Assembly: GCF_009827395.1 (NCBI RefSeq)
Contig: NZ_WTYX01000001.1
Location: 1,307,722-1,371,721, forward strand
Direction: 5' to 3'
Origin: Pontixanthobacter aquaemixtae
Lineage (GTDB): Bacteria > Pseudomonadota > Alphaproteobacteria > Sphingomonadales > Sphingomonadaceae
DNA length: 64,000 bases
Part shown: piece after piece, positions 10,117 through 46,975 of the stretch
Numbering within the stretch: position 1 is the stretch's first letter
Layout: each line of letters opens with the position of its first letter
The notes under the pieces: generated by a model
What the model saw: the letters and a program-made list of their open reading frames with translations, nothing else
Told to the model about the DNA's origin: nothing
Databases searched by the model: none
Program-made: the position numbers and the translations under genes

Positions 10117-10248
10117 GGCGGGGTTTATGCCGCGCAGCTTTGACGGGGGCAAGCCCACCGGCAAATTTGCGTGGCAGCAGCATCTGGTGGTAACAAACGG
10201 CCATCAGACAGAGCGCCGCATGAAAGCGCGTCGTCGATGGGGGGAAGC

Positions 10249-10662
10249 ATGCAAAATCCATTGGTAAAAAGAATTGTCGCCGTCGTTGTGGGTGTATTGG
10301 TCGCCGGTCTGGTAGTGGGCGTTGTCGAAGGGCTCGGCCATATGGCTTTTCCGCCGCCAGAGGGGCTGGATATCACCGACCCTGAAGATCAGGCGCGGAT
10401 CATGCTCGAGATACCGCTTGCTGCAAAAATTTCTGTCGTCGCCGCGTGGTTTCTCGGCGCGCTTGCGGGCGCTTGGAGTGCGATCCGTATTGCGAGCGAG
10501 GTCATTCCCGGCTGGATTGTCGGGCTGGTGATGGTCGGGCTCAGCGCGTGGACCACCCAGATGTTTCCGCATCCGCTGTGGATGATGGTTTCGGCATTCG
10601 TCTTGCCGCTCATTGCAGTGCTGGTGGCCAAACAGCTGCACAAAGCGCGGCTTACTGCTTGA
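10249..10662 (+). CDS. Small integral membrane protein of unknown function
   Basis: A 137-residue protein with about four transmembrane helices (roughly residues 8-30, 60-82, 86-104 and 110-128) and a short soluble loop containing GLDITDPEDQARIML. No catalytic motif is visible. The ATG at 10249 is chosen for the GGGGAAGC ribosome-binding site; an upstream open extension has no such site. It runs convergently into phrB, overlapping its 3' end by 11 bases. Confidence 0.75.
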   Translation: MQNPLVKRIVAVVVGVLVAGLVVGVVEGLGHMAFPPPEGLDITDPEDQARIMLEIPLAAKISVVAAWFLGALAGAWSAIRIASEVIPGWIVGLVMVGLSAWTTQMFPHPLWMMVSAFVLPLIAVLVAKQLHKARLTA

Positions 10663-12040
10663 TCGCCTTATACGTGTCGAGCGCGCGTTCGCGTGCTTCG
10701 CGGTGCCCGATGATTTTCGCCGGATAGCCATCGGGCAGGCATCCATGCTCCTCGGGATCGTGGATATAGGGCGCGTCCAGCTGCGCCAGTTCGGGCACAT
10801 ATTCGCTGATATAACCCGCCGCATCGAATTTCTCCGACTGGCTCAGCGGCGCCATAATCCGCACGAACATATTGCTGTCCACGCCGGTCCCCGCGACCCA
10901 TTGCCAATTGGTGCCGTTTTGCGCGTAGTCGGCATCGACCAGCGTGTCCCAAAACCATTGTTCGCCATGCCGCCAATCAATCAGCAGATGCTTGATCAGA
11001 AAACTCGCCGCGATCATCCGCACGCGGTTATGCATCCATCCCGTTTGCCATAGCTGGCGCATTCCCGCATCGACCACGGGGTATCCGGTCTTTCCCTTTT
11101 GCCACGCTTTCAGATCAGCAGCGGCATCCGCGTCGGTTTTCGGATCGCGCCATTTCAGCTTTTCGAAATCCTCACGATAGGATTGCGTGGGATAGGCCGG
11201 AAACTGGCAAATCACATTTTGTGCATAGTCGCGCCAGATCAGCTCCTTGCCATAAACATCCCAGCCCTTCCCCCGCCGCCCTTTCAAGGCGTGCCACACC
11301 TGCGCGGGCGAAATTTCGCCGAAATGCAAATGCGGTGAGAGACGCGATGATCCATCCTGCGAGGGCAAGTTGCGCGCGTCATCATATTCGGCGACATCGC
11401 CTTCCCATTCGGCCAGGCGATCTTGCGCAGCGGCCTCACCCACTTGCCAGAAGGCATCGATCCCGCCCGACCAATCGGGCCGCGTGGGCAGCAGGTTCCA
11501 ATCATCCAACGCATCGCTTTTGGGCCAGCTATCGGGATGCGACAGCGTCTCTGGCTCCGGCAACACATCGCGCGGAGGCATCTGTTCGAGCGTGGCTTTG
11601 GAAAACGGCGTGTAGATCTTGTACGGCGTGCCCGATCCGGTGGTGACCGCGCCCGGCGGCAGCAGGTAATTCCCGTCATAGAGCTGCAGATCGAAGGCGT
11701 CTGACAGTTTGCCCTGTGCCTTGCGCCACCATGGTTCGTAATGGCGAATGGCGTGGATAACCTCTGCGCCTGTTTCTTCGACAATTTTTGTCAGCTCTTC
11801 CACCGTATCGCCGCACCGCAGGATTAGCCGCGAATGTCTTGCGCCAAGCGACTTGGACAGGCTGTCCAGCGAGTGATGCATCCACCAGCGCGAGGCACCA
11901 CCATAGGCATGGCTGCCCGCGGCATCGTCATCCAGCACATAGACCGGAATAACCGGCCCTGCCTGCGCGGCGGCATACAGAGCGGGCTGATCTGCCATCC
12001 GCAGATCACGCCGAAGCCAGACGATTTGTGGTTTGGTCAT
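10652..12040 (-). CDS. phrB: Deoxyribodipyrimidine photo-lyase
   Basis: Light-driven repair of cyclobutane pyrimidine dimers with FAD. 462 residues: N-terminal antenna domain beginning IVWLRRDLRMADQPAL, then the FAD domain with RLSPHLHFGEISPAQVW, GMRQLWQTGWMHNRVRM and WQWVAGTGVDSN, the signatures of class I CPD photolyases. The C-terminal IMAPLSQSEKFDAAGYISEYVPEL is typical. The ATG at 12040 has AAGGAGACAG directly upstream. A palindromic repeat lies 15 bases upstream of the start, so the promoter is probably inside or beyond it. Confidence 0.95.
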   Translation of the reverse strand: MTKPQIVWLRRDLRMADQPALYAAAQAGPVIPVYVLDDDAAGSHAYGGASRWWMHHSLDSLSKSLGARHSRLILRCGDTVEELTKIVEETGAEVIHAIRHYEPWWRKAQGKLSDAFDLQLYDGNYLLPPGAVTTGSGTPYKIYTPFSKATLEQMPPRDVLPEPETLSHPDSWPKSDALDDWNLLPTRPDWSGGIDAFWQVGEAAAQDRLAEWEGDVAEYDDARNLPSQDGSSRLSPHLHFGEISPAQVWHALKGRRGKGWDVYGKELIWRDYAQNVICQFPAYPTQSYREDFEKLKWRDPKTDADAAADLKAWQKGKTGYPVVDAGMRQLWQTGWMHNRVRMIAASFLIKHLLIDWRHGEQWFWDTLVDADYAQNGTNWQWVAGTGVDSNMFVRIMAPLSQSEKFDAAGYISEYVPELAQLDAPYIHDPEEHGCLPDGYPAKIIGHREARERALDTYKAIKQ

Positions 12041-12055
12041 CTGTCTCCTTACCGC

Positions 12056-12192
12056 CCCTCTTCTTTAGAGGAGGGGCAACGAGACTTGGCGTTGCTCGGC
12101 AATGCCTAGTCGCAGTGGGGTGGTGGAGATGGCTCGCGCGAGGCTCACGCCTCGCCACCACCCCCAACCCCCTCCTCTAAAGAAGAGGGGGC
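12056..12192. repeat. Long palindromic element upstream of phrB
   Basis: Outer arms at 12056-12077 and 12170-12191 are a perfect 22-base inverted repeat (core CCCCTCTTCTTTAGAGGAGG), with a second nested pair, GGGGTGGTGG near 12116 against CCACCACCCC near 12157. The whole about 137-base element can fold into one long branched hairpin. It fills the gap between phrB and the DUF457 gene and encodes nothing. The arms look like terminal inverted repeats of a small non-autonomous element, but no target-site duplication was identified. Confidence 0.75.
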
Positions 12193-12209
12193 TTTCGTGT
12201 TAAAGCGCC

Positions 12210-13190
12210 CTACCCCGCCGGAAGTTCCTCACATTCCACTTCGGGCAACGCGACAGTGAAGCGATCCCGCGCACGAGGATCGTAGAATCGCGCGTCGCGG
12301 AGGAGAACGGTGCCGTCTTCGGCGCGCTCGGCAAAGGGAGCGCGTGACCAGAAGAGGAAGGCGTCAACACCCGGATCTTTTCCTCGATCAGATTCCAAAT
12401 CCGGCAGTAGGCATCTTCCACTGACGATTTCTTCAGCGTGGAACCCTCCGCTATCATATCGGATGAGCGTCAGCCACCTTCCTTCATTGACCGCGAGCGT
12501 TTCACGAGCCCAAAAGTCAAAGGGGATCGGGCTTGCGATCACTTCAGCGCTGCTCATTTCCGCAAATGAACTCCCGGCATCCAATCCCGCGACATATTGG
12601 CTTCCATCGCGTTCAAATTTGTAAGTAATCGCCCCATTCAACCCGATATACGCCAAGCTCACCGCAATCGCCACGCGCGCAGGCTTCTTCCAATCCCCGC
12701 CCCGCTTCTCTCGTCGCAAAGAGAACCACGTCGCAAAACCCATCAGCGCCCATAGCCACACATCGATGATAAACAGCGTATCGCCGTAGAACCATTGGCT
12801 CGAAAATGGCTCCAGCAGGCGGATGCCATACACGTTCAGCCAATCAAGCGCGGGATGCGTCAAGCAGCCGATAAAGCTGAGCAGGAACAGCCATTTGAAA
12901 TTGACCGGCAACCTGCCCTCGGGCCTCTTGCCGCGTTTCGTCTGCCACCTGTCAAACGCATAGAGCAGCCCTGCCAATATCAGCGGCAACAGCACCAGCG
13001 CCGGCGGGCCATGCGTAATCCCACGCCGGAAACCGAGATGCTCCGCGCCCTCCAGCCAGAAAAAACACGCCGCATCGACATCGGGCAAATTCGCCCCGAT
13101 AATCAGCGCGGGCATGGCAAGGCCGGTTTTCTTCTTGAGACCAGCCTGCCCCAGCAATGCACCAACGAGAGAGTGGGTTAGGTTGTCCAC
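12210..13190 (-). CDS. DUF457-type membrane-bound metal-dependent hydrolase
   Basis: A 326-residue protein of the YdjM/YfhO-like 'LexA-regulated, membrane-bound hydrolase' family. MDNLTHSLVGALLGQAGL at the N-terminus, ANLPDVDA, GITHGPPALV and LTHPALDW supply the conserved His/Asp residues between about five transmembrane helices in the first 190 residues; the rest is a soluble domain. The enzymatic activity of the family is not established. Start is GTG at 13190, 12 bases after the korB stop, so it may be transcribed with korAB. Confidence 0.82.
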   Translation of the reverse strand: MDNLTHSLVGALLGQAGLKKKTGLAMPALIIGANLPDVDAACFFWLEGAEHLGFRRGITHGPPALVLLPLILAGLLYAFDRWQTKRGKRPEGRLPVNFKWLFLLSFIGCLTHPALDWLNVYGIRLLEPFSSQWFYGDTLFIIDVWLWALMGFATWFSLRREKRGGDWKKPARVAIAVSLAYIGLNGAITYKFERDGSQYVAGLDAGSSFAEMSSAEVIASPIPFDFWARETLAVNEGRWLTLIRYDSGGFHAEEIVSGRCLLPDLESDRGKDPGVDAFLFWSRAPFAERAEDGTVLLRDARFYDPRARDRFTVALPEVECEELPAG

Positions 13191-13202
13191 GCGCCGCGCA
13201 CC

Positions 13203-14252
13203 CTAATCCGTCGGATGCCCTTCATTCGGATCGACAGTCCACGTCTGCCCCTTGCCTAGCAGTTTGGCGAGATTGGCTTCTTTGCCCTCTGATGCCCGCG
13301 CGCGTTCTTCGATTACGGCAGTTTCAAAGGTCGGGCGCGGATCGTCATAGATCACGCCCAGAGCCATCGGGAACGGCCCGAAAGGCATTTCGATCAGCAT
13401 ATGCGCGATGGTGCGGTCTTTGGCGTTGTGGACCAGCACGCCCGCCTCTTCCCAATTCTCTTCACTCGCATCGACGACTTTGAGAGTCAGCGTGTCGCGA
13501 TCGAGCGCAATGCCCTTGTCGTAGCCCGCCTTGGGATCGCCGAACAGCATCGGCTTGCCATCTTCCAGCCATAGCTGGCGGTCGCCCGCGCCTTTCGGGG
13601 CGGCGAAATCGTTGAACACGTCTTTGTTATAGACGATGCAGTTCTGGAAAATCTCGATAAAGGCCGCGCCTTGATGGGCATGCGCTGCCATCAGCACATC
13701 GGGCAGGTTTTTCGAAACATCAAAACCGCGCCCGACAAAACGCGCACCTGCACCCAGCGCAAAGGCGCATGGATTGGCCGGGTGATCATAGGACCCGATC
13801 GGCGTCGACGGGCTCTTGGTCCCTTCGCGGCTTGTGGGGGAGCTTTGCCCCTTGGTCAGGCCGTAAATCTCGTTGTTGAACAGCATGATCTGCATGTTCA
13901 CATTGCGGCGCAGCACATGCATCATATGGTTGCCGCCGATGGACAGCCCGTCACCGTCACCGGTCACCAGCCAGATATCGAGATCGGGATTGGCCAGCTT
14001 AACACCCGTCGCAATCGCCGGCGCACGGCCGTGGATCGTGTGGAAGCCGTATGTTTCCATATAATAGGGGAACCGGCTGGAGCAGCCGATGCCGCTGATA
14101 AAGCAGGTGTTCGAAGGGTTCGCGCCAAGCTGCGGCAAAGTGCGCTGCACCGCCTTGAGGATCGCATAGTCCCCGCAACCGGGACACCAGCGGACCTCTT
14201 GATCCGTTTCCCAATCCTTGAGCGTGGTTTCGAATTTAACGGGTGCGTTCAT
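13203..14252 (-). CDS. korB: 2-oxoacid:ferredoxin oxidoreductase subunit beta
   Basis: Thiamine-diphosphate subunit of a 2-oxoglutarate (or related 2-oxoacid):ferredoxin oxidoreductase, giving CoA-thioester, CO2 and reduced ferredoxin. The 349 residues include WCPGCGDYAILKAVQ near residue 22 (conserved Cys pair), GIGCSSRFPYYM, the TPP motif GDGDGLSIGGNHMMH and NNEIYGLTKGQ. The partner subunit korA is directly upstream, separated by a palindromic repeat. ATG at 14252 has GAGG upstream, lying at the edge of that repeat. Confidence 0.93.
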   Translation of the reverse strand: MNAPVKFETTLKDWETDQEVRWCPGCGDYAILKAVQRTLPQLGANPSNTCFISGIGCSSRFPYYMETYGFHTIHGRAPAIATGVKLANPDLDIWLVTGDGDGLSIGGNHMMHVLRRNVNMQIMLFNNEIYGLTKGQSSPTSREGTKSPSTPIGSYDHPANPCAFALGAGARFVGRGFDVSKNLPDVLMAAHAHQGAAFIEIFQNCIVYNKDVFNDFAAPKGAGDRQLWLEDGKPMLFGDPKAGYDKGIALDRDTLTLKVVDASEENWEEAGVLVHNAKDRTIAHMLIEMPFGPFPMALGVIYDDPRPTFETAVIEERARASEGKEANLAKLLGKGQTWTVDPNEGHPTD

Positions 14253-14261
14253 AATTTACCT

Positions 14262-14342
14262 CGTCATCCCAGCGAATGCTGGGATCGCTATCAGCAAGCT
14301 CCGCCCAAGCGGAGGAAGATCCCAGCTTTCGCTGGGATGACG
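14262..14342. repeat. Palindromic repeat between korA and korB
   Basis: Arms at 14262-14286 and 14318-14342 are inverted copies matching at 24 of 25 bases, and each arm is itself a hairpin (ATCCCAGC / GCTGGGAT). A third small stem CTCCGC / GCGGAG sits in the middle. It occupies most of the korA-korB intergenic space; its left end CGTCAT, read on the minus strand, runs straight into the korB ribosome-binding site (GACGAGG). Probably a dispersed repeat of the same type as the small hairpin at 1250-1277. Confidence 0.8.
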
Positions 14343-14356
14343 GAAGAGAGAATGGA

Positions 14357-16276
14357 TCACTGCTCCGGACTCGGCAGTTGGTCGTCATTGACCGGAACCT
14401 GCCCGCCTTCATTGCCCGAAACATCGTCAAAATATTTGCCAATTGCCGCTTCCATTTCCGCAATCGCGAAAGGCTGTCCGCTGGTTTTGGTCAGCGGGGT
14501 CGCATCGACAAGGAACTGGTCGCGCAGCACGGTTTTGAACTGGCCGGTGTTCATTTCGGGCACCAGCACATTGTCATAGCTTTTCAGCAGATCGCCAAGG
14601 TTCGCGGGTAGCGGCCACAAATGGCGCACATGGATATGGCTGACATCGCAGCCCTTGGCGCGCATCCGGCGGACCGCCTGATGGATCGGGCCAAAAGTGG
14701 ACCCCCAACCGACCACTGCCAGAGTGCCCGAAGTCTCGCCCAGTGCCACGTCCTGATCGGGCACTTTCACGCCTTTAACCTTGTTCACGCGCGCATCGGT
14801 CATCGCCTGATGGTTGTCGGGCGCGTAATCGATATGGCCGGTATCGACCGCCTTCTCGATCCCGCCAATGCGGTGCATCAGATCGGGCGTGCCCGGCTTG
14901 ATCCATGGGCGCGCGCCCTTTTCGTCGCGCTTGTATGGGAGCAGCTCTTCGCCGCCGTTTTTCTCTTGCAGGAACTTCGCCGGAAACGGCTCAAACGTTT
15001 CGGGATCGGGCACTTTCCAGGGTTCTGCTGCATTGGCGATATAGCCATCGGTCAGCAGCATCACCGGCGTCATATATTCAACCGCGATCCGGCATGCCTC
15101 GATAGCGACTTCAAACGCGTCGCCCGGGCTGCATGCAGATACAACCGGCATCGGCGCATCGCCGTTGCGGCCATAAATCGCCTGATAGAGATCGCTTTGC
15201 TCGGTCTTGGTCGGAAGGCCGGTCGATGGCCCGCCGCGTTGGCTGTTGACGATGACCAGCGGCAGCTCGGTCATAATCGCAAGCCCCATCGCCTCGCCTT
15301 TCAGCGCGATACCGGGGCCGGAGGATGACGTAATGCCAAGCTGGCCTGCATAGGACGCGCCGATTGCCGCACAGATCGCGGCGATCTCGTCCTCTGCCTG
15401 AAAAGTGGTGACGCCGAATTCTTTGAGCCGCGCCAGATGGTGGAGGATCGCCGAGGCTGGCGTGATCGGATAGCCGCCAAAGAACATCGGCAATTCGGCC
15501 AATTGCGCGCCCGCAACCAGACCCAGCGAAATCGCCTCTGCCCCGGTGATGGTCCGGTACAGGCCCGGCTCGCTTTCAACCGCATCGACGTGGACCTTGG
15601 TCAGCGGCCCCGCAATTTCTGCCGTCTCGCCATAGGCATGGCCGGCATTCAGCGCCGCGATATTGGCATCGGCAATCTCGGGCTTGGATTTGAACTTGGC
15701 TTTCAGCCAATCCTCGATCGGCGTGCGATCGCGGTCAAACATCCACAGCGCGAGGCCCAGCGTCCACATATTCTTGGACCGCAGCGCATCCTTGTTACCC
15801 AGACCGAAGGGCTTCACCGCCTCGATCGTCAGCGCGGAAATGTCGAAGGCCAGCACATCCCATTTGGCCAGCGTGTCATCCTCCAGCGGCGACACATCAT
15901 ATTTCGCCTTGTCGAGATTGCGCTTGGAAAATTCGCCGGTGTCGATGATCACCAGCCCGCCGGGCTTGAGCGACGGCAAATTCACTTTGAGCGCGGCGGG
16001 GTTCATCGCCACCAGCACATCGGGAGCATCGCCCGCGGTGTTGATCTCGCGGCTGCCGAAATTGATCTGGAAAGCAGACACACCGAACAAAGTGCCCTGC
16101 GGTGCACGGATTTCGGCGGGGAAATCAGGGAAGGTCGCCAGATCGTTGCCCGCAAGCGCGGTTGATAGAGTGAACTGACCGCCGGTCAGCTGCATTCCAT
16201 CGCCCGAATCTCCGGCGAAACGAACGACAACTGCTTCGGGTGCTGTGGTGGGTTTTTCCTTGGCCAAACTAGCCAT
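14357..16276 (-). CDS. korA: 2-oxoacid:acceptor oxidoreductase subunit alpha
   Basis: Large subunit partner of KorB. 639 residues with the gamma-type domain fused at the N-terminus (VVRFAGDSGDGMQLTGGQF near residue 20, then DVLVAMNPAALKVNLPSLKPGG) followed by the pyrimidine-binding alpha domain (GGYPITPASAILHHLARL, AIGASYAGQLGITSSSGPG, QRGGPSTGLPTKTEQSDL). This fused architecture is the KorA form of aerobic and microaerobic bacteria. The ATG at 16276 is preferred over 16282 because AAGGA sits six bases before it. Divergent from rppH. Confidence 0.93.
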   Translation of the reverse strand: MASLAKEKPTTAPEAVVVRFAGDSGDGMQLTGGQFTLSTALAGNDLATFPDFPAEIRAPQGTLFGVSAFQINFGSREINTAGDAPDVLVAMNPAALKVNLPSLKPGGLVIIDTGEFSKRNLDKAKYDVSPLEDDTLAKWDVLAFDISALTIEAVKPFGLGNKDALRSKNMWTLGLALWMFDRDRTPIEDWLKAKFKSKPEIADANIAALNAGHAYGETAEIAGPLTKVHVDAVESEPGLYRTITGAEAISLGLVAGAQLAELPMFFGGYPITPASAILHHLARLKEFGVTTFQAEDEIAAICAAIGASYAGQLGITSSSGPGIALKGEAMGLAIMTELPLVIVNSQRGGPSTGLPTKTEQSDLYQAIYGRNGDAPMPVVSACSPGDAFEVAIEACRIAVEYMTPVMLLTDGYIANAAEPWKVPDPETFEPFPAKFLQEKNGGEELLPYKRDEKGARPWIKPGTPDLMHRIGGIEKAVDTGHIDYAPDNHQAMTDARVNKVKGVKVPDQDVALGETSGTLAVVGWGSTFGPIHQAVRRMRAKGCDVSHIHVRHLWPLPANLGDLLKSYDNVLVPEMNTGQFKTVLRDQFLVDATPLTKTSGQPFAIAEMEAAIGKYFDDVSGNEGGQVPVNDDQLPSPEQ

Positions 16277-16426
16277 CAACATTCCTTTTCGTGCGCGATT
16301 TTGCGCGCCTTATTCTGTCAGGAAACCGCACCTATGCGCGGTCACCTGCTCCCGCAATGTAGTTTTTCTCCTAGAAGGGCAAAAAGTCGAGTGGAAAATG
16401 AAGTTTTCCGCGTTAGAGCAGCCCCC

Positions 16427-16948
16427 ATGAGCAAGGATGCGCAGATGAAAGAGCTTGGCTATCGCCCCTGTGTCGGGGTGATGCTGGTCAATACACACAG
16501 CAAGGTGTTTGTCGCCGAACGGCTCGATAGCCGCCACGGCAACGGCCACACGTCGGGCTTCTGGCAAATGCCGCAAGGCGGCGTCGATAAGGGCGAAGAT
16601 TTGCAGGAAGCCGCGCTGCGCGAACTGGCCGAAGAAACCGGCGTCGGCGCCGACAAGGTCACTCTGCTGGGCCAGACGCGCGAACCCATCCGCTATGACT
16701 TGCCCGATGAATTGATCGGCAAATTATGGAAGGGAAAATATCGCGGCCAGGAACAGGTCTGGTACTGCGCCCGCTTCCTGGGCGACGATGCCGATATCGA
16801 TCTGGAGGCACACGATCCGCCGGAGTTTTCCCAGTGGAAATGGATCGACCCTGAACGGCTTCCCGATGTGATCGTGCCGTTTAAGAAGCACGTCTATCAG
16901 GCTGTTCTGGAAGAGTTTCGTGCTTTGGTTTTTGCGGACACACCATGA
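16427..16948 (+). CDS. rppH: RNA pyrophosphohydrolase RppH (Nudix)
   Basis: Nudix hydrolase that removes pyrophosphate from 5'-triphosphate mRNA ends (and acts on ApnA). The 173-residue protein opens ELGYRPCVGVMLVNTHSKVF, and the Nudix box GGVDKGEDLQEAALRELAEETGVG lies at about residues 49-72 (split here as GGVDKGEDLQEAALRELAEE then TGVG). WQMPQGG and YRGQEQVWYCARFLG are RppH hallmarks. ATG at 16427 follows the noncoding stretch; a later ATG at 16445 is also possible. Its stop overlaps the next small gene by 4 bases. Confidence 0.92.
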   Translation: MSKDAQMKELGYRPCVGVMLVNTHSKVFVAERLDSRHGNGHTSGFWQMPQGGVDKGEDLQEAALRELAEETGVGADKVTLLGQTREPIRYDLPDELIGKLWKGKYRGQEQVWYCARFLGDDADIDLEAHDPPEFSQWKWIDPERLPDVIVPFKKHVYQAVLEEFRALVFADTP

Positions 16949-17166
16949 CCGACTATCAATGCTGGTTCTGTGGCGAGGGCATCAATCAGTCAGATTGCGG
17001 AGCGGTTATCATCACCATCGAAAATCTATGGCGATGGAACAAGGCGTCCAGCGAAACGGATGCCCCCGCTCAAGCTGTTTTTGCGCATAGAGAGTGTGCC
17101 AAGAGGAAGCTTCGCGGTCAGGGAATGGAATTTGACCCAGGAGTCTTCAACGAGGACGATAGTTAG
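16945..17166 (+). CDS. Small CxxC-containing protein of unknown function
   Basis: A 73-residue protein beginning MTDYQCWFCGEGI. The CxxC pair near residue 6-9 plus a later Cys and His (FAHRECAKRKLRG) suggest a small zinc-binding fold. It shares ATGA with the end of rppH and is therefore translated with it. No function can be assigned; the acidic C-terminus (EDDS) ends abruptly but no frameshift is apparent. Confidence 0.7.
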   Translation: MTDYQCWFCGEGINQSDCGAVIITIENLWRWNKASSETDAPAQAVFAHRECAKRKLRGQGMEFDPGVFNEDDS

Positions 17167-17247
17167 CCAATCGCTCTCAGGCGTGGACACATCGCCCCAT
17201 AATCAACCGGCTAATGGGCGAATGAGAATTTCGGAACGATACCGCTC

Positions 17248-17751
17248 TCAGTTCTGAGAAATTTCCGTATCGGGCATCACCGCCTCTGCGCGCAGCACTT
17301 GTGGCTGCGGGCCTCTTGCAATGGCGGCGGCCAGTTGGCGGGTTTCGGTGCAGGAAGTGCCGCACAAAGTTTCCAGCCGGGAAAGGTTTCCGCGCGCTTT
17401 TTCAACCGCGCCTTTTTCCACCAGAGCCTCGCCCTCACCCGAAATTGCGGCGAGATTTTCAGGCTCTCGCGCCAGGGCTTCACGATAGAGGCGGATTGCC
17501 TTGCCTTGCAGCCCTTCGCGGCGCGATGCCTCCGCCAGATAAAGGAAAACCGGCGTATAGGCCGGATCGACCGCCAGCGCGGCCTCGAAACTGTCAATGG
17601 CGCGTTGCGGCTGGCCGGCGTCAAGCGCTGCCTTGCCCTCGGCGATCAACATCGCGGCGCGTGGATGCGCATCGCGGTCCTGCGCCTGACCAATGCTGGC
17701 AGTAACGGCAAAAACCAGTGAAAGAGCCGCGGCGGCAGGGGCAAAGCGCAT
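17248..17751 (-). CDS. Secreted TPR-repeat protein
   Basis: A 167-residue periplasmic protein with a signal peptide (MRFAPAAAALSLVFAVTASIGQAQ) and about three tetratricopeptide repeats, for example AMLIAEGKAALDAGQPQRAI, FLYLAEASRREGLQGKAIRL and EGEALVEKGAVEKARGNL. Two cysteines (LCGTSC) lie after the last repeat. The ATG at 17751 has a strong AAGGAG site upstream, so the longer open frame to 17805 is not used. TPR proteins of this kind act as scaffolds; the partner is unknown. Confidence 0.82.
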   Translation of the reverse strand: MRFAPAAAALSLVFAVTASIGQAQDRDAHPRAAMLIAEGKAALDAGQPQRAIDSFEAALAVDPAYTPVFLYLAEASRREGLQGKAIRLYREALAREPENLAAISGEGEALVEKGAVEKARGNLSRLETLCGTSCTETRQLAAAIARGPQPQVLRAEAVMPDTEISQN

Positions 17752-17823
17752 TATTAACTCCTTGACGGCAGTTTTCTCGGGATGGGTCGAATCTGCCATG
17801 GCCATAGTAGTTAACAGCGATTC

Positions 17824-19005
17824 CTATGCGGGTGAAGTGACGCGCGCGATGAAGAAGCCGTCCGTGCCGTCATGGAACGGAGTAAGCCGCCTTCCTTTCC
17901 CGTGCGGTCGGCCAATCGGCCAGTCGAGCGCGTCTGCCTGCCAGCCGGGATGCGCGGTCAGAAACGCGTCGATCCGGCTCGACCCTTCTTCGTCGAGCAA
18001 AGAGCAGGTGACATAGATAATCCGCCCGCCGGGTTTCACCAATTGCGCCGCCATGCCCAGCAAGCGCGATTGCAGCAGAGAGAATTCGGTCACCGCGGCC
18101 TTGTCCAGCCGCCAGCGCGCTTCGGGGTTGCGCCGCCATGTGCCGACGCCCGAACATGGTGCATCAACCAGAACCGCATCGGCCTTCCCACGAAAATCGG
18201 CGAGAATCTCCAGCTCTTTGCCCGGATCAAGCAAGATGGTTTCGATAACACCCGCACCGGCGCGTTCGGCGCGCGGGGGCAAATTGCCCAAGCGGCGTTT
18301 GTCGGTATCGCTGGCGATCAACGTCCCGCAATTGTCCATCGCCGCCGCGAGAGACAGCGTTTTGCCCCCTGCCCCGGCGCACAGATCGATCACCGTTTCG
18401 CCCGGTTTCGCATCGACCGCTGAACAGGCCCATTGGCTGCCGTGATCCTGCACTTCGATCTGGCCTTCGCGGAAGGCCTGCCATTGCTCTACCTGCGTTC
18501 CCGAGGGAAAGCGCAAACCCTGCGGGGCGAGCAATTCTTCGCCCTGTTCGGGAAGCTCCAGCGTGCCGCGATCGGCGCGCAGCGTATTCACCCTGATGTC
18601 GAGCGGCGCACGGTCGAGCAATGCCCCCGCTTCGGTTCCAACGATGTCGGATGCGGCGAGCAATTTGTTGACCACAGAATGCGCGATGCCGCCCTTCGCC
18701 GGGACTTCCCTGTCACCAATCGCAGGCGGGCCGTATTGCGATCCGTCAAACAGCGGCTTCAGCTCTGCATCGATTTCTGCAAGCCGCAACATTGCCGCGC
18801 GGCCGGTATCAGGAATGGGGCCGCAAGCGCGAATGGCACCATAGACCAGCTCGCGGATGGCGCGGCGGTCTTTCGAACCGGCATAGCGATTGCTGCGCGC
18901 CCAATCTGCGATGATCCGATCTGCCGGCGCGCCTTTGATCCGCGCCTTGTCGATAATGGTGTCGAGTATCTCAATCGACGCCTGAACGCGTGCTGCTGGG
19001 GTCAT
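17824..19005 (-). CDS. rsmB: RsmB/NOP family class I SAM-dependent RNA methyltransferase
   Basis: Predicted 16S rRNA m5C methyltransferase. 393 residues: an N-terminal NusB-like helical region, then the Rossmann domain with VIDLCAGAGGKTLSLAAAM (motif I), SDTDKRRLGNLPPRAER, the catalytic VLVDAPCSGVGTWRRNPE (motif IV with PC dipeptide) and YVTCSLLDEEGSSRI (motif VI with the nucleophilic TCS cysteine). The start at 19005 overlaps the stop of the upstream 91-aa gene by 4 bases. Confidence 0.92.
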   Translation of the reverse strand: MTPAARVQASIEILDTIIDKARIKGAPADRIIADWARSNRYAGSKDRRAIRELVYGAIRACGPIPDTGRAAMLRLAEIDAELKPLFDGSQYGPPAIGDREVPAKGGIAHSVVNKLLAASDIVGTEAGALLDRAPLDIRVNTLRADRGTLELPEQGEELLAPQGLRFPSGTQVEQWQAFREGQIEVQDHGSQWACSAVDAKPGETVIDLCAGAGGKTLSLAAAMDNCGTLIASDTDKRRLGNLPPRAERAGAGVIETILLDPGKELEILADFRGKADAVLVDAPCSGVGTWRRNPEARWRLDKAAVTEFSLLQSRLLGMAAQLVKPGGRIIYVTCSLLDEEGSSRIDAFLTAHPGWQADALDWPIGRPHGKGRRLTPFHDGTDGFFIARVTSPA

Positions 19006-42153: not shown

Positions 42154-43813
42154 CTTTTTCGAGCAAACGGTCCGCCTGCGCGCGGGCTTCATCGGTGGTT
42201 TCAGCGCCCGATAGCATCCGCGCGATTTCTTCCTTGCGCTCCGTCTCGTCGAGCAAGCGAACCGAGGTGCGGGTAACCGTTCCTTCGGAAGATTTTGCGA
42301 TCATGTAATGCTGCCCGCCGCGCGCCGCGACTTGCGGGCTGTGCGTAACCGCGAGCAATTGCCCGCCATCGGCAAGCCTTGCCAGACGGTCGCCAATCGC
42401 GCTCGCCACTGCGCCGCCAACGCCGCGGTCGATCTCGTCGAAAATCACCGTCGCCGCCCCGCCCTTTTCCGCCAGCGCCACTTTCAGCGCGAGGATAAAG
42501 CGCGACAGTTCGCCGCCCGAGGCAATCTTGCCCAGCGGCGCAAAATCCGCGCCGGGATTGGTTGAAATGAGATATTCGACGCTGTCGGTCCCTTGCGCGC
42601 CCCAGCGATCTTCGGGAAGTGTTTCGATCGCAGTTTTGAACCGCGCCGCATCCAGTTTCAGCGGGACCAGCTCCCCTTCCACTGCCTTGTCCAGCGTCTT
42701 CGCCGCGCGCATCCGCGCATCGTGCAGTTTCTGCGCAGCGTTGCGGTACGCCTCGCCCGCCTCTTTCTCCGCCGCTTCGAGAGCGCCGACGCCTGCTTCG
42801 CCGCCTTCGATTGCATCGAGCTGCGCGCGCATTGTCCGCATCAATTCGGGCAAAGCATCAACATCGCAGCGATGCTTGCGCGCCGCCGCACGAAGTTCGA
42901 ACAAGCGCGTTTCCGCATTGTCCAAAGCTTCGGGGTCGTGGACCAGTTGATAGCCCGCTTCGGTCAGCTTGTCCTCCGCCTCACCCGCTTCGATCACCGC
43001 GCGGTCGAGCGAAGCCAGCGCTTCGGACAGCAGCGGATGTTCCTCTGCAATACGGTCCAGCTTGCGCGCGGCGCTGCGCAGCGAGGCCAGCGGGGAATTG
43101 GACCCGTCCCACACTTTGCGCAGGTCCTCCAACTCGCCCTGCAGCCGCTCGCCCTTCTGCATGTCGGAACGCAGCCCGGCCAGCTGCGCCTCTTCCCCCG
43201 CCGTGGGCTGCAATTCGGTCAGCTCGGCGAGATGCGCGATCAGCAGATCTTCGTCTTCCTTGGCCTGTTCGATAGAGGCACGCGCATCGGCCAGCTTGGC
43301 GCGCACATCGCGCCACCTGTCCCAAGCTGCGGACACCGCATCGACATTGGCCCCGGCAAAGCGATCTAGCAAGATCCGGTGCCCGCCGGGATTGACCAGG
43401 CCGCGATCATCATGCTGGCCATGCAATTCGACCAGAGTGCCCGACATGGACCGCAGCAGCGCCACACCCACCGGCTGATCGTTCACAAATGCCTTGGAGC
43501 CGCCATCAGCTTTGAGCCGCCGCCGCAGGATCAGCGGTTCGCCAGGCTCGATCTCAACTTCCGCATCGTCCAGCACGTCGCGCAAAGCAGCGGGCATTGC
43601 GGCGAATTCAAACGTGGCGGTGACGCTGGCGCTATCCTCTCCCGCACGGATCAGGCCCATATCGGCGCGGTTGCCCAGCACCAGACCAAGCGCATCGAGC
43701 AGAATCGATTTACCCGCCCCTGTTTCGCCGGTCAGCACACCCAACCCGCCCGAAAATGTCAGGTCTAGCGCCTCGATCAGCACGATATTGCGGATGGAAA
43801 GCTGGGTCAGCAT
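42149..43813 (-). CDS. recN: DNA repair protein RecN
   Basis: SMC-like ATPase used in double-strand break repair. 554 residues: LSIRNIVLIEALDLTFSGGL and Walker A GETGAGKSILLDALGLVLG at the N-terminus, a coiled-coil middle with many Ala/Glu/Arg (about residues 160-370), and the C-terminal ABC signature SGGELSRFILALKVALAE with Walker B TVIFDEIDRGVGG. ATG at 43813 matches homologues (MLTQLSIRNIVLIE). Confidence 0.95.
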   Translation of the reverse strand: MLTQLSIRNIVLIEALDLTFSGGLGVLTGETGAGKSILLDALGLVLGNRADMGLIRAGEDSASVTATFEFAAMPAALRDVLDDAEVEIEPGEPLILRRRLKADGGSKAFVNDQPVGVALLRSMSGTLVELHGQHDDRGLVNPGGHRILLDRFAGANVDAVSAAWDRWRDVRAKLADARASIEQAKEDEDLLIAHLAELTELQPTAGEEAQLAGLRSDMQKGERLQGELEDLRKVWDGSNSPLASLRSAARKLDRIAEEHPLLSEALASLDRAVIEAGEAEDKLTEAGYQLVHDPEALDNAETRLFELRAAARKHRCDVDALPELMRTMRAQLDAIEGGEAGVGALEAAEKEAGEAYRNAAQKLHDARMRAAKTLDKAVEGELVPLKLDAARFKTAIETLPEDRWGAQGTDSVEYLISTNPGADFAPLGKIASGGELSRFILALKVALAEKGGAATVIFDEIDRGVGGAVASAIGDRLARLADGGQLLAVTHSPQVAARGGQHYMIAKSSEGTVTRTSVRLLDETERKEEIARMLSGAETTDEARAQADRLLEKA

Positions 43814-43946
43814 CAGGCGGTAATATCGCAGACCTTTGCCTACGTCATCAGCCGCGTGCGCGCTATTGACAGCTTAGGCGGACATTGCGCCAGTCCCGTT
43901 GGTGAGCCGGTTAATTCTTGGCTGCGCAGTTGCAGCCGCAGCGCCC

Positions 43947-43979
43947 GTTCGATCAGCGTTCGATCAGCGTTCGATCAGC
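43947..43979. repeat. Three 11-base tandem repeats at the end of bamD
   Basis: GTTCGATCAGC occurs three times perfectly (43947-43957, 43958-43968, 43969-43979). The third copy contains the bamD stop codon, so the first two are downstream on the transcript. Likely replication slippage. Confidence 0.85.
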
Positions 43980-44802
43980 TGGCGGTTGCGCCGGGTGCTT
44001 TCTTCTGGATCAGCTCGAACGCTTTCTCATACCACTCGTTGCCCGGGTAATTGGCACCCAGAACCGCGGCATATTTTACCGCTTCTTGCGGCACACCCAG
44101 CGCCAGACTGCTTTCGGTCAAGCGATAGAGAGCTTCCGGCGCGTGGCTGGTCGTCTGGTAATTGTCGACCACATTCTGGAAGCGGATCTGCGAAGCAAGC
44201 CAGCGGCCGGAACGTTGATAGAAACGCCCGATTTCCATTTCTTTGCCGGCAAGGTGATCGTTGACAAGGTCGAGCTTCAGCCGCGCATCGGCGGCATATT
44301 CGGTTGTCGGGAACCGGCGGTTTACTTCGGTCAGTGCCGAGCGCGCCTGATCGGTGATTTTCTGATCGCGGGTCACATCGCTGATCTGCTCGTAATAGCT
44401 GAGCGCAATCAGATAATAGGCGTATGGCGCGTCTTTGTTACCCGGGTGGATCGACAGGAAGCGCTGCGCGCTGGCAATCGATTTGTTGTAATCACGGCCA
44501 ACGTAATAGCTGAAGGCGCTCATCAATTGTGCGCGGCGCGCCCATGGCGAATAGGGGTGCTGCCGTTCAACCTCGTCAAACAAAGCGGCGGCAAGCGGAG
44601 CGCGGCCTTGGTCGAGCTTTTCCTTGGCCGAGAAATACAGCGTTTCCACATCGCGCGCGACATAGGCCGTGCCGTCGGTACCACCGCCGGCACCGCCGCC
44701 TCCACCAATTCCCAAAGAGGCGCAGCCGCCCAGCATCATTGTGCTGGCGGCGAAAGCGGAAGCAAGTGCGATTGAGCGCGGACTGCGAGTGTTCGATGTC
44801 AT
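43975..44802 (-). CDS. bamD: Outer membrane protein assembly factor BamD
   Basis: Lipoprotein of the BAM complex that inserts beta-barrel proteins. 275 residues with a lipobox (MMLGGCASLG), a Gly-rich linker, then TPR-like repeats: EKLDQGRAPLAAALFDEVER, RAQLMSAFSYYVGRDYNKSI, YAYYLIALSYYEQI. LDLVNDHLAGKEMEIGRFYQ is a BamD signature. ATG at 44802 is preferred over the TTG six bases upstream. Downstream in the same direction is recN, an order common in alphaproteobacteria. Confidence 0.94.
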   Translation of the reverse strand: MTSNTRSPRSIALASAFAASTMMLGGCASLGIGGGGGAGGGTDGTAYVARDVETLYFSAKEKLDQGRAPLAAALFDEVERQHPYSPWARRAQLMSAFSYYVGRDYNKSIASAQRFLSIHPGNKDAPYAYYLIALSYYEQISDVTRDQKITDQARSALTEVNRRFPTTEYAADARLKLDLVNDHLAGKEMEIGRFYQRSGRWLASQIRFQNVVDNYQTTSHAPEALYRLTESSLALGVPQEAVKYAAVLGANYPGNEWYEKAFELIQKKAPGATAS

Positions 44803-44874
44803 AGCCAAGGCCTATAGACAGCCACTCGCTGAACGCCAAGTGAAGGTTGCGTTAAATGCTGTGCGTAGTGGCGA

Positions 44875-45003
44875 TTAGCTGAGGGTGTAGGCAAGACCGC
44901 CTTCAAAACCTGAGGGATTAGTGCCAGCCCGCGTCCGCTTCAGCGGATCGACGAATTCCACTTTCGGCTTTACCCAGGCTTTTTTCTTATCGGACGTGTT
45001 CAT
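44875..45003 (-). CDS. Candidate lasso peptide precursor 1
   Basis: A 42-residue product. Leader MNTSDKKKAWVKPKVEFV then DPLKRTR; putative core AGTNPSGFEGGLAYTLS. The leader has a WxKPxV motif comparable to the YxxPxL motif bound by lasso RRE proteins, Thr at -2, Ala at core 1 and Glu at core 9, which would give a nine-residue macrolactam ring. The ATG at 45003 is preceded by GGGGGGAAG. It is one of three paralogues in tandem with 96- and 133-base gaps. No lasso cyclase (B2), leader peptidase (B1) or exporter is present in the window. Confidence 0.65.
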   Translation of the reverse strand: MNTSDKKKAWVKPKVEFVDPLKRTRAGTNPSGFEGGLAYTLS

Positions 45004-45099
45004 AACTTTCTTCCCCCCATCGATCATCGATAATGACCTTAGCCAACTAAACGCCTAGAACCAAGTGAAGCTTACATCAAATGCTGTGCGTAGCTGCGC

Positions 45100-45243
45100 T
45101 TAGCTGGGCGTGTAGAAAGGGCTTTCCACCTTGCCTATGTAGGCACCACCTTGCGTGTGCTTGATCGGCGTCACGCTTTTAACCGTCGGCTTCGACCAGA
45201 CACTCGGCTTTGCCCAAGACTTCTTACTATCGGCGGATTTCAC
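45100..45243 (-). CDS. Candidate lasso peptide precursor 2 (doubled leader motif)
   Basis: A 47-residue paralogue with GTG start at 45243, preceded by GAGGGGAAAG. The leader contains the motif twice in succession (WAKPSV then WSKPTV), making it six residues longer than its neighbours; it ends PIKHTQ. Putative core GGAYIGKVESPFYTPS has Gly at 1 and Glu at 9, with Thr at -2. The stop and about 55 bases after it resemble the matching region of copy 1 (about 46 of 55 identical), evidence of tandem duplication including the 3' flank. Confidence 0.65.
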   Translation of the reverse strand: MKSADSKKSWAKPSVWSKPTVKSVTPIKHTQGGAYIGKVESPFYTPS

Positions 45244-45376
45244 GAATCTTTCCCCTCTTCAATCAATTCCCGGCGTCCCTAACGCAACAAACTTACAATT
45301 TGCAAGGTGCGGCGCGGTTCAAAGCAGCGGTTGCGTTCTCGCTGCACCTGCCCTGGCCGTTCGGTCAGCCCGGTAT

Positions 45377-45502
45377 TTAGCTGGGCGTGTATAATGCGTT
45401 TTCGACCGGTGCGGGTTTAATCGCAGCGCGTGTTTGCCGCAGGGGCGATACGAATTGCACCGTCGGTTTTACCCAAGCCTTCTTAGTATCTGCGGCCTCC
45501 AT
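45377..45502 (-). CDS. Candidate lasso peptide precursor 3
   Basis: A 41-residue paralogue, first in the transcription order. Leader MEAADTKKAWVKPTVQFV then SPLRQTR; putative core AAIKPAPVENALYTPS with Ala at 1 and Glu at 9 and Thr at -2. The ATG at 45502 follows GGGAGAG at good spacing. The tail ending LYTPS is shared with copy 2 (FYTPS) and nearly with copy 1 (AYTLS). Its upstream region (45503-45671) is shared with the divergent TPR-like gene. Confidence 0.65.
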   Translation of the reverse strand: MEAADTKKAWVKPTVQFVSPLRQTRAAIKPAPVENALYTPS

Positions 45503-45671
45503 CAATCTCTCCCGAGTTTCACGAAAAAATGCTCAGTGAGGCAACGGGAAGAGGAATGCAAATCAAACAATCGATTTGCCCATACGGAAGGCACACATTC
45601 CCCCAACGCCGCAAATATTGGAAATATCTGGCGATGCCTGTTACCAATGTGGGGGATTCTGGGAGGGTACT
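45503..45671. promoter_or_regulatory. Divergent control region between the precursor genes and the TPR-FecR genes
   Basis: About 170 bases, visibly more AT-rich than the flanking genes, separating the minus-strand small precursor genes from the plus-strand TPR-like gene. It must hold both promoters. I cannot point to a confident -10/-35 pair or operator. Confidence 0.4.
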
Positions 45672-46052
45672 ATGAATCGACATAATTTCCGCAATTTGGC
45701 AGCCGCGATTCTTTGCGGCGCATTGATCGCGGTTCCCGCGGCCGCGCAAACGCTTGAAGAACTTGATACGATGTCGGACGTTTCGGAAAGCGAAGAGGCG
45801 GGAATCGCTTTCGCGCAGGAACAGGCTGGTCGCGGTGAATTTCTGGAAGCAATCGCGACACTTGAACGCGTTCTGGCCAACCATCCCAAATCGCAATCCG
45901 CGCGGCTGCTTCACGCGATTTTTCTGTGCCGGATAGACGACCGTCCCGGCGGAACGGTGGAATTGTCCAAATTGAAAGAGAAACATTTCACCCCTGAATT
46001 ATGGGCACGCGCTGCCGCGATCTGCGCCGCGCCGCAGGGGAATGAGCCATGA
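45672..46052 (+). CDS. Small exported TPR-like protein
   Basis: A 126-residue protein with signal peptide (MNRHNFRNLAAAILCGALIA, cleaved after AAA) followed by a single TPR-like pair: EEAGIAFAQEQAGRGEFLEA and TLERVLANHPKSQSARLLHA. ATG at 45672 follows GGGAGG. It shares ATGA with the FecR gene and so is co-translated with it. Such small TPR partners are often found beside FecR-domain proteins and CHASE2 cyclases. Confidence 0.8.
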   Translation: MNRHNFRNLAAAILCGALIAVPAAAQTLEELDTMSDVSESEEAGIAFAQEQAGRGEFLEAIATLERVLANHPKSQSARLLHAIFLCRIDDRPGGTVELSKLKEKHFTPELWARAAAICAAPQGNEP

Positions 46053-46975
46053 CCCATTTCTCCACATTCTCGTTTAGGGGTTTCTCGCTCAAAGCCACTT
46101 TGGTCGCGCTGACCGCGATTGTCCTGACCGCTGCCCCCGCTGCCTCGGCACCGGTCCAGGTTGGCATCGCGGCGCTGGTGGTTGGCGATGTCAGAATGAG
46201 CAACGCCTCTATCACCAAGCCGCGCAAGATTGCCCGGCGTGCGCGTCTTTTCTGGGGCGACACGGTGCAAACCAAAAGCAACAGCAAGCTGCAAATCCTG
46301 CTACTCGACCGGTCAAGCCTGACGATTGGTTCAAAAGCCAGCCTGACCATCGACCGCTTCGTTTACGATCCCAACAAGAGCCGCACTTTGAGCTCCAGCG
46401 TCATCCGCGGCGCTTTTCGCTATATGTCTGGCAGACGGACGGGCAATTCTACCGCAACGGTCAGTTCACCTGTGGGTACGATTGGCATTCGCGGAACCGT
46501 TCTGGATGGTATCGTCGGCAAGGAAGCAAAAGACATCGCCGAGGACGAGCCGTTTCTCGACGGGGTAAAGAGCGACAAGAACACCGCCACATTGGTGGTG
46601 CTGCGCGGCCCCGGTGCCAGCACCGAAGCCGGGCTGACGGTCGGCTCCGCCGATGTGACCGCAGCGGGCAAAACGGTGCTGCTCGATCAGCCCTCGCTCG
46701 CCGCCTATATTCCGCGCCCCGGTGCGCAGCCGATTGGTCCGTTCCGGCTTTCTGGCCCCGGCCTCGCCAAGCTGCAGGATGAACTCTCTCCGCGTGTGGC
46801 CAAGGCCAATAGCGGCGGCGGATTACTGGGCAAATTGCTTCCGGCTGTGGCTGTCGGCGTGGGGATATTGTTGCTGACAGATGGCGATGATGACGATCCG
46901 AACCCCAACAACCCGAGCAATAATATACCGGCTAACAACCCGACCAGTTGCCCTCCGAACAGTCCCAATTGCTGA
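46049..46975 (+). CDS. FecR-domain exported protein
   Basis: A 308-residue protein with a signal peptide (about residues 1-33) and a FecR domain: ARLFWGDTVQTKSNSKLQIL, DRSSLTIGSKASLTIDRFVY and GAFRYMSGRR then TATVSSPVGTIGIRGTVLDG, which is the typical FecR pattern. Near the C-terminus a hydrophobic helix (LLPAVAVGVGILLLTDG) precedes an Asp/Asn/Pro-rich tail with two cysteines. It is not the sigma-factor-linked FecR form (no FecI nearby). Convergent with the CHASE2 cyclase gene. Confidence 0.87.
   Translation: MTHFSTFSFRGFSLKATLVALTAIVLTAAPAASAPVQVGIAALVVGDVRMSNASITKPRKIARRARLFWGDTVQTKSNSKLQILLLDRSSLTIGSKASLTIDRFVYDPNKSRTLSSSVIRGAFRYMSGRRTGNSTATVSSPVGTIGIRGTVLDGIVGKEAKDIAEDEPFLDGVKSDKNTATLVVLRGPGASTEAGLTVGSADVTAAGKTVLLDQPSLAAYIPRPGAQPIGPFRLSGPGLAKLQDELSPRVAKANSGGGLLGKLLPAVAVGVGILLLTDGDDDDPNPNNPSNNIPANNPTSCPPNSPNC

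Follow-up and report, generated by a model that had tools for sequence, protein, structure and literature searches.

Dispersed precursor genes of a kinase-type, lasso-like peptide family in Pontixanthobacter aquaemixtae, probably processed in trans by one remote enzyme cluster

We analysed a 64,000-nucleotide window of the Pontixanthobacter aquaemixtae genome (C1:1307722-1371721; genome of 2.98 Mb in three contigs), which contains three short genes in tandem, all on the minus strand. P1 (44875-45003, minus strand) starts with ATG and encodes 42 residues, MNTSDKKKAWVKPKVEFVDPLKRTR followed by AGTNPSGFEGGLAYTLS, the predicted cut after Thr-x lying between the two parts. P2 (45100-45243, minus strand) has a GTG start and encodes 47 residues (core GGAYIGKVESPFYTPS), and P3 (45377-45502, minus strand) has an ATG start and encodes 41 residues (core AAIKPAPVENALYTPS). 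The original prediction, made without database searches, had described them as paralogous products of 41-47 residues with a WxKPxV leader, Thr at -2, Ala, Gly and Ala at core 1, Glu at core 9, a C-terminal Y-T-(P/L)-S and a ribosome-binding site for each gene. All of these features hold in P1-P3, with the Thr(-2) register being an assumption and the ribosome-binding sites being represented by purine-rich, Shine-Dalgarno-like runs ahead of each start.

Directly downstream of P1-P3 lies bamD (YfiO, PF13525; 43975-44808, minus strand), which we use as the anchor of this site, and the opposite flank is a FecR-domain gene (PF04773; 46049-46975, plus strand). Two copies of a 91-nt repeat, 71% identical to each other, are found at 44800-44890, covering the start region of bamD, the intergenic stretch and the 3′ end of P1, and at 45025-45115, covering the region upstream of P1 and the 3′ end of P2. 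This pair suggests that tandem duplication upstream of bamD probably enlarged the array. WxKPxV is present twice in the P2 leader (WAKPSV and WSKPTV), so that the putative RRE-binding site, judged from sequence alone, would be duplicated within this leader. No sigma-70 promoter shared by the array was detected in 44780-45700 (0 vs 0.7 expected), and no RNA families were found in 43800-46200.

The short length of these genes, and the lack of any useful match to P1-P3 among the Pfam and NCBIfam precursor models, could be taken to mean that they are chance ORFs. Against this, a whole-genome search with P3 alone returned P1 (E 4.5e-9) and the precursor of the enzyme cluster described below (4.8e-5), as well as R1 (8e-4), R2 (1.4e-3) and P2 (1.9e-3). 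A profile built from seven precursors of P. aquaemixtae matched precursors of other genomes with E-values down to 5.7e-17, and homologues occur in three genera. With the iterated profile, P1-P3 scored between 1e-18 and 4e-16 and the next-best ORF of the window 0.038; these values are flattered by the presence of all three genes in the seed. The dN/dS values of the P1-P3 pairs were 0.34/1.54, 0.52/1.15 and 0.40/0.86, with dS high and near saturation, and dN was lower than dS in all eight precursor pairs with a defined dS (11 pairs tried). Chance ORFs are thus all but excluded: P1-P3 are genuine paralogous, coding genes for lasso-type precursors. Cyclisation, threading and phosphorylation of their products are inferred.

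The original prediction had further stated that the window holds neither B1/B2 enzymes nor an isopeptidase, TonB receptor or exporter, had offered service in trans by machinery elsewhere or a related, undescribed RiPP as the two readings, and had named the absence of RiPP modifying enzymes from the genome as a refutation. The claim on B1/B2 holds, as the only Transglut_core3 protein, the only PqqD protein and the one recognised lasso-type cyclase of the genome all lie outside the window; regarding the exporter, the window does contain a single match of ABC ATPase type (G000:C1:1310491). A genome search for B1, B2, an RRE and more WxKPxV precursors recovered an enzyme set and five further precursors. 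The enzymes are encoded in a cluster of about 8.4 kb on C1, 0.37 Mb from P1-P3, that holds B1, B2 and cyclase. In the coordinates of locus L002 (C1:1708001-1728000), it comprises B2 (9442-9897, plus strand), an NTP_transf_5 (nucleotidyltransferase-type) gene (9916-11217, minus strand) and, all on the plus strand, Sulfotransfer_3 (11210-12022), an Asp_Arg_Hydrox Asp beta-hydroxylase (12036-12662), an HPrK-like kinase (12676-13581), Sulfotransfer_1 (13662-14477), B1 (14482-14772), a cluster precursor (14881-15054), the cyclase (15232-16968) and a GT8 gene (16977-17879). On the strand opposite to GT8 lies an FG-GAP/UnbV_ASPIC protein (L002:17876-19975), which flanks all ten core-family cluster stretches examined, each time on the opposite strand (the fragmented genome G563 being left out); it could conceivably be a surface target or receptor.

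B1 scores 70.6 bits with PF05402 (cut-off 23.4) and 64 bits with NF033536, under the cut-off of 80, and its best PDB sequence match is the lasso PqqD chaperone 9x90_B, followed by TbiB1. B2 scores 61.4 bits with NF033537 (cut-off 33), and a Cys...HxW pattern is present in four of the five B2 proteins compared, that of P. aquaemixtae among them. Six genes of this genome account for seven Asn_synthase matches. The top NCBIfam match of the cluster cyclase is the lasso cyclase model (245 bits, cut-off 525), and the XrtA amidotransferase of P. aquaemixtae reaches 255 bits on the same model, so this model alone is no proof of a lasso cyclase. Its assignment as lasso-type is tentative, with the supporting gene context weighing no less than the models. 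As alternative cyclases, the two remaining large proteins with an Asn-synthase-like match were considered and rejected, their top match being the XrtA/PEP-CTERM amidotransferase model (one of them above its cut-off), and the count of one recognised cyclase excludes three short Asn_synthase frames (250-391 aa), which were not characterised. In four sister clusters (L052, L054, L056 and L057), an ABC exporter lies between the nucleotidyltransferase and the sulfotransferase; it is absent from the P. aquaemixtae cluster, and its nearest homologue there, 32% identical, is on another contig. P. aquaemixtae lacks this exporter in its cluster although its genome has the most precursors.

Eight precursors were gathered in P. 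aquaemixtae with the P3 search, the seven-row profile and the iterated profile: the cluster holds one, the window three, and a third site at C1:363372-364375, flanked by an S9 peptidase and an alkA-type glycosylase, the other four (R1-R4). In R3 (L020:9934-10074), neither Thr(-2) nor the Pro within WxKP is retained, and this copy is perhaps decaying. The sequences before the GTG starts of P2 and R1-R3 are alike (gaagagggaaagattc in R1, the others being one base longer or shorter), which is a possible, if weak, hint of copying between sites. We considered the S9 prolyl-oligopeptidase beside R1-R4 (L020) as a lasso isopeptidase and rejected it as a plain neighbour, because S9 is present in 11/11 genomes, seven of which have no precursor between it and the alkA-type gene.

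We then examined dispersal in three genome sets only, namely the family (298 genomes), an order-level draw (396) and the genus (8). In the family set, 16 genomes matched the profile at E<=0.01 and ten at E<1e-5; the six weak ones (G011, G198, G065, G055, G002 and G241; E 4e-4 to 0.0096) were dropped. A lasso B2 is present in all ten genomes with strong precursors, compared to 131 of the 298 overall; these ten genomes are related and do not represent ten independent cases. The order-level draw gave no additional precursors at E<1e-5, and its matches in G273, G420 and G198 (L082-L084), the only weak ones inspected at the level of the locus, were dropped for want of the full motif, that of G420 possibly belonging to another lasso type. 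In the genus search, seven of the eight genomes had precursors, and the fragmented genome G563 was added. With one genome counted per species, the core family comprises 27 precursors in 11 genomes, and the precursor-bearing relatives fall in Pontixanthobacter, Parerythrobacter and Sphingorhabdus. Nine precursors are direct neighbours of the cyclase; the other 18 are located away from it and are spread over six genomes: P. aquaemixtae (seven), P. luteolus (four), G291 (one), G015 (one), G044 (two) and G563 (three, on contigs other than the cyclase contig, next to alkA or bamD).

Other species, too, carry remote arrays at fixed sites, a result beyond the reach of the original prediction. The alkA/S9 site is occupied in four and empty in seven of 11 genomes, and the bamD site is occupied in one and empty in ten. 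In addition to these 11, two precursors adjoin alkA and one lies upstream of bamD in G563, and the junction bamD-p158-FecR is conserved without precursors in G120, G259 and G291. The occurrence of both states at alkA/S9 and at bamD indicates that copies come and go at these two fixed positions.

The P. luteolus genome bears most directly on the question of service in trans; its cluster locus (L054) agrees without a mismatch with a named record (L110) over 16,540 bases. Its cluster retains B1, kinase, B2 and cyclase, with B1 ending 33 bases ahead of the cyclase frame and no precursor between them; none was found in the 20-kb stretch around this cluster, and all four precursors found lie 1.19 Mb away from it. 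In G563, the gap between B1 and cyclase is likewise too small for a precursor and only remote precursors were found, with the reservation that parts of this cluster sit on different contigs and that the estimated completeness of the genome is 77%, so that a precursor elsewhere could be missed. These two genomes argue for service in trans, since the full cluster of P. luteolus would otherwise be left with nothing to act on. The remaining genus member, G037, has no core-family precursor; B2 is present and the best cyclase match is only 27% identical. A different lasso-like precursor candidate adjoins this distant cyclase (L193:1116-1340; WEKPEL leader, acidic core) and has an E-value of 1.8e-5 with the wide profile.

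Hence, we consider it likely (probability about 0.8, without peptide, transcript or enzyme data) that P1-P3 give rise to lasso-like RiPPs of the kinase type through processing in trans by a single remote cluster. The trans reading of the original prediction is therefore well supported, by the one B1/B2/cyclase set elsewhere together with its homologous precursor. At the sequence level, the precursors, the single recognised enzyme set, the kinase motif described below, the dispersed arrays and the precursor-free gaps between B1 and cyclase are shown. Two alternatives concern the remote copies. They could be duplicated, decaying copies that are no longer turned into products, as suggested by the state of R3, by array growth through tandem duplication and by the bamD site being empty in 10 of the 11 genomes first examined. 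This is unlikely given that dN is below dS in every pair with a defined dS, that Thr is kept in 26/27 and the terminal Ser in 27/27 precursors, and that P. luteolus retains its enzymes with only remote precursors found. Alternatively, the remote peptides could be regulators or decoys that occupy the RRE and form no product; the conserved leader could in principle bind B1, and separate regulation of the remote sites can be imagined. The retention of the acceptor Glu, the small core 1 and the terminal Ser in remote and local precursors alike, and the two genomes with remote precursors only, make this very unlikely.

We next looked at the conserved tail, which the original prediction had regarded as odd for lasso cores. 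The kinase of the cluster answers this concern, as kinase-type precursors conserve their C-terminal Ser (PMC9266682). Lasso kinases phosphorylate this Ser on the linear precursor, it is an extremely conserved site of kinase-type precursors, and SyanK of Sphingobium adds several phosphates (PMC9266682; PMC8498205). Ser is the last residue of all 27 core-family precursors, and a Tyr stands a short way ahead of it. The kinase motif (H, GxxGxGKS, DD) is present in all nine kinases found, with the same residues and spacing as the reported H148-G163-G166-G168-K169-S170-D186-D187 (PMC10368454); no kinase was seen in the G015 cluster stretch. By sequence, the kinase falls under the curated HPrK cut-offs, and a sequence search of the PDB gave nothing convincing. 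Its AlphaFold model (pLDDT 92.9) matched PEPCK first (TMq up to 0.55) and HPrK lower (TMq 0.32-0.36) among 50 fold-search entries. The conserved Y-x-x-S tail fits phosphorylation of the C-terminal Ser as reported for paeninodin and SyanA, with phosphorylation here being an inference.

For a wider set, genome contigs were scanned by cyclase alignment, the best 80 of 161 relatives giving 79 loci. At E<=1e-5, 62 of these are hit by the kinase profile, and 87 of the 92 unique parsed precursors (core family included) end in Ser. Of the 17 loci without a kinase in the stretch, six have no precursors and 11 have precursors that all end in Ser. In a contrast test over the 79 loci, the C-terminal Ser therefore does not track the presence of a kinase; this might be explained by a kinase encoded beyond the stretch, or equally by the Ser having a structural role.

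The position of the putative acceptor Glu is less uniform than P1-P3 had suggested. In ungapped, right-aligned sequences, the mean pairwise identity of the 27 precursors is 51% in the leader, 59% in the last four residues and 14% in the ring interior. Thr(-2), 14 residues after the conserved Trp, is kept in 26/27, and core 1 in the assumed register is Gly in 20, Ala in five and Ser in two; Asn at position 1 is reported for metanodin (PMC12670498). With a cut after Thr-x, Glu falls at core 8 in two precursors, 9 in 12, 10 in 11 and 11 in two, the last being Q4 of P. luteolus and the orphan of G291, so that Glu at core 9 is true of P1-P3 and is not kept by all homologues. An acidic residue lies at core 7-9 in 14 of the 27 precursors and not in the other 13. 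A cut one residue later would bring the range to 7-10, with only 2/27 outside 7-9, and the spacing of Bradymonas-type precursors, in which YxxPxL spans -17 to -12 (PMC10368454), would fit this later cut. We place no weight on the corresponding count for the wide set, 52/92 with an acid at 7-9 (16 rows unparsed), because the automatic choice of Thr is unreliable outside the core family. From the Thr-to-Glu spacing we infer predicted rings of 8-11 residues (7-10 with the later cut), beyond the 7-9 residues reported for lasso rings (PMC9266682; PMC8498205). In P. aquaemixtae, in one and the same register, the window precursors have Glu at "9" and the other five at "10". Accordingly, either both lengths are tolerated by the enzymes or the cleavage point moves.

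These ring lengths raise the possibility that the products are plain unthreaded lariats (branched macrolactams), or are only trimmed and phosphorylated, and hence are lasso-like without being lassos. In favour of this are the short cores (15-18 residues) with only six to eight residues past Glu, the predicted rings of up to 11 residues and the score of the cyclase far under the lasso cyclase cut-off. Against it, the B1/B2/cyclase set, Thr(-2) and the small core 1 are lasso-like, and a ten-residue lasso ring has been engineered in vitro (PMC8498205). We regard this alternative as less likely than not. A bolder reading, for which the balance also tips slightly to the negative side, is that a cell with one lasso-type set closes rings of varying size, natural macrolactams of ten and eleven residues among them, on dispersed precursors that undergo birth and death and share a fixed phospho-Ser tail. 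If true, this would be the lasso counterpart of the prochlorosin system and would break the 7-9 ring rule; a one-residue change of ring size has been reported to lower the yield sharply (PMC13352647).

For processing of P1-P3 in trans, we propose a pathway whose order and chemistry are inferred from the named families. The PqqD-type RRE (B1) would bind the WxKPxV leader, and the HPrK-like kinase would act on the still linear precursor, phosphorylating its invariant C-terminal Ser. Cleavage by B2 would fall two residues past the conserved Thr, and the Asn-synthetase-like cyclase would link the freed N terminus with the conserved Glu, so that a short tail containing F/Y remains. Further modification may come from the sulfotransferases, nucleotidyltransferase, Asp beta-hydroxylase and GT8, the conserved Tyr being a candidate sulfation site. 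As a guess, the dispersed, ring-variable arrays may let one enzyme set yield a changing peptide repertoire.

With the iterated profile, related precursors were found in the wider loci in Sphingopyxis, Pseudomonadales, cyanobacterial records and others, showing that this kinase-type kind of precursor is widespread. In addition, related cyclase loci number at least 9, 7, 6, 5, 3 and 3 in OY282353, OY282455, OY282378, OY282519, OY282433 and OY282379, respectively (counted from the best-80 list); all six are uncultured Pseudomonadales/Gammaproteobacteria chromosomes. Six precursor-like ORFs occur in L139, a Pseudomonadales MAG contig. From sequence alone, these multi-locus chromosomes would represent large lasso-like expansions. 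Closer to P. aquaemixtae, a study of six Pontixanthobacter/Allopontixanthobacter strains (PMC10040529) lists cluster-like genes, within Cluster_1738-1748, that co-occur with salt tolerance (its Table 2): B2, nucleotidyltransferase, ABC transporter, sulfotransferases, Asp beta-hydroxylase, PqqD, Asn synthase-related protein and glycosyltransferase. These are likely to be genes of the lasso-type cluster described here; that study treats the cyclase as an asparagine synthase, and the word "precursor" is absent from its text. A different sphingomonad lasso cluster is described in PMC11006600. In the open-licence literature searched, we recognised no report of remote lasso precursors or of natural rings above nine.

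Genome mining for lasso peptides normally seeks a precursor beside B and C. Since 18 of the 27 core-family members are located elsewhere, this approach would overlook the majority and would score the P. luteolus cluster as having no precursor. The family is a source of natural substrates whose differences are concentrated in the ring, with leader and tail fixed, and makes two questions directly testable, namely the largest ring that a lasso-type cyclase can close and the purpose of the conserved kinase target in the tail. It also suggests a way in which a single enzyme set could widen its product range, namely the cheap duplication of tiny genes.

Among known systems, the closest are SyanA/SyanK of the proteobacterium Sphingobium yanoikuyae and paeninodin (PadeA/PadeK) of Firmicutes, which have in common with the P. 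aquaemixtae system the split B1/B2/cyclase, the HPrK-like kinase with H, GxxGxGKS and DD, the conserved C-terminal Ser, the aromatic-xxP-x-hydrophobic leader motif and the Thr before the core (PMC9266682; PMC8498205; PMC10368454). The P. aquaemixtae system differs from them in its remote precursor sites and its unfixed ring length, and its cluster adds two sulfotransferases, an Asp beta-hydroxylase and a GT8; the SyanA sequence was not part of this comparison. The usual, though not strictly defining, kinase-type arrangement has the precursor inside the cluster, whereas P1-P3 lie 0.37 Mb from a cluster that holds one precursor of its own. Pseudomycoidin (kinase and nucleotidyltransferase; phosphoglycosylated) resembles our case in that the P. 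aquaemixtae cluster has a kinase and NTP_transf_5, a likeness with no sequence comparison behind it; it comes from a different phylum, and there is no evidence of hexose addition in P. aquaemixtae. Caulosegnins I-III likewise combine one enzyme set with several precursors and ring sizes of 8 and 9 (PMC13352647), but their rings stay within 8-9. Caulosegnin precursors are local. In the prochlorosins (ProcM lanthipeptides), many precursors are likewise served by one solitary, promiscuous enzyme (PMC10783134), although the chemistry and the enzyme family are different and only the logic is alike. Prochlorosin cores are hypervariable and their precursors dispersed. In summary, kinase-type lasso peptides are already known, and what is new here are the dispersed arrays and the spread of predicted ring lengths.
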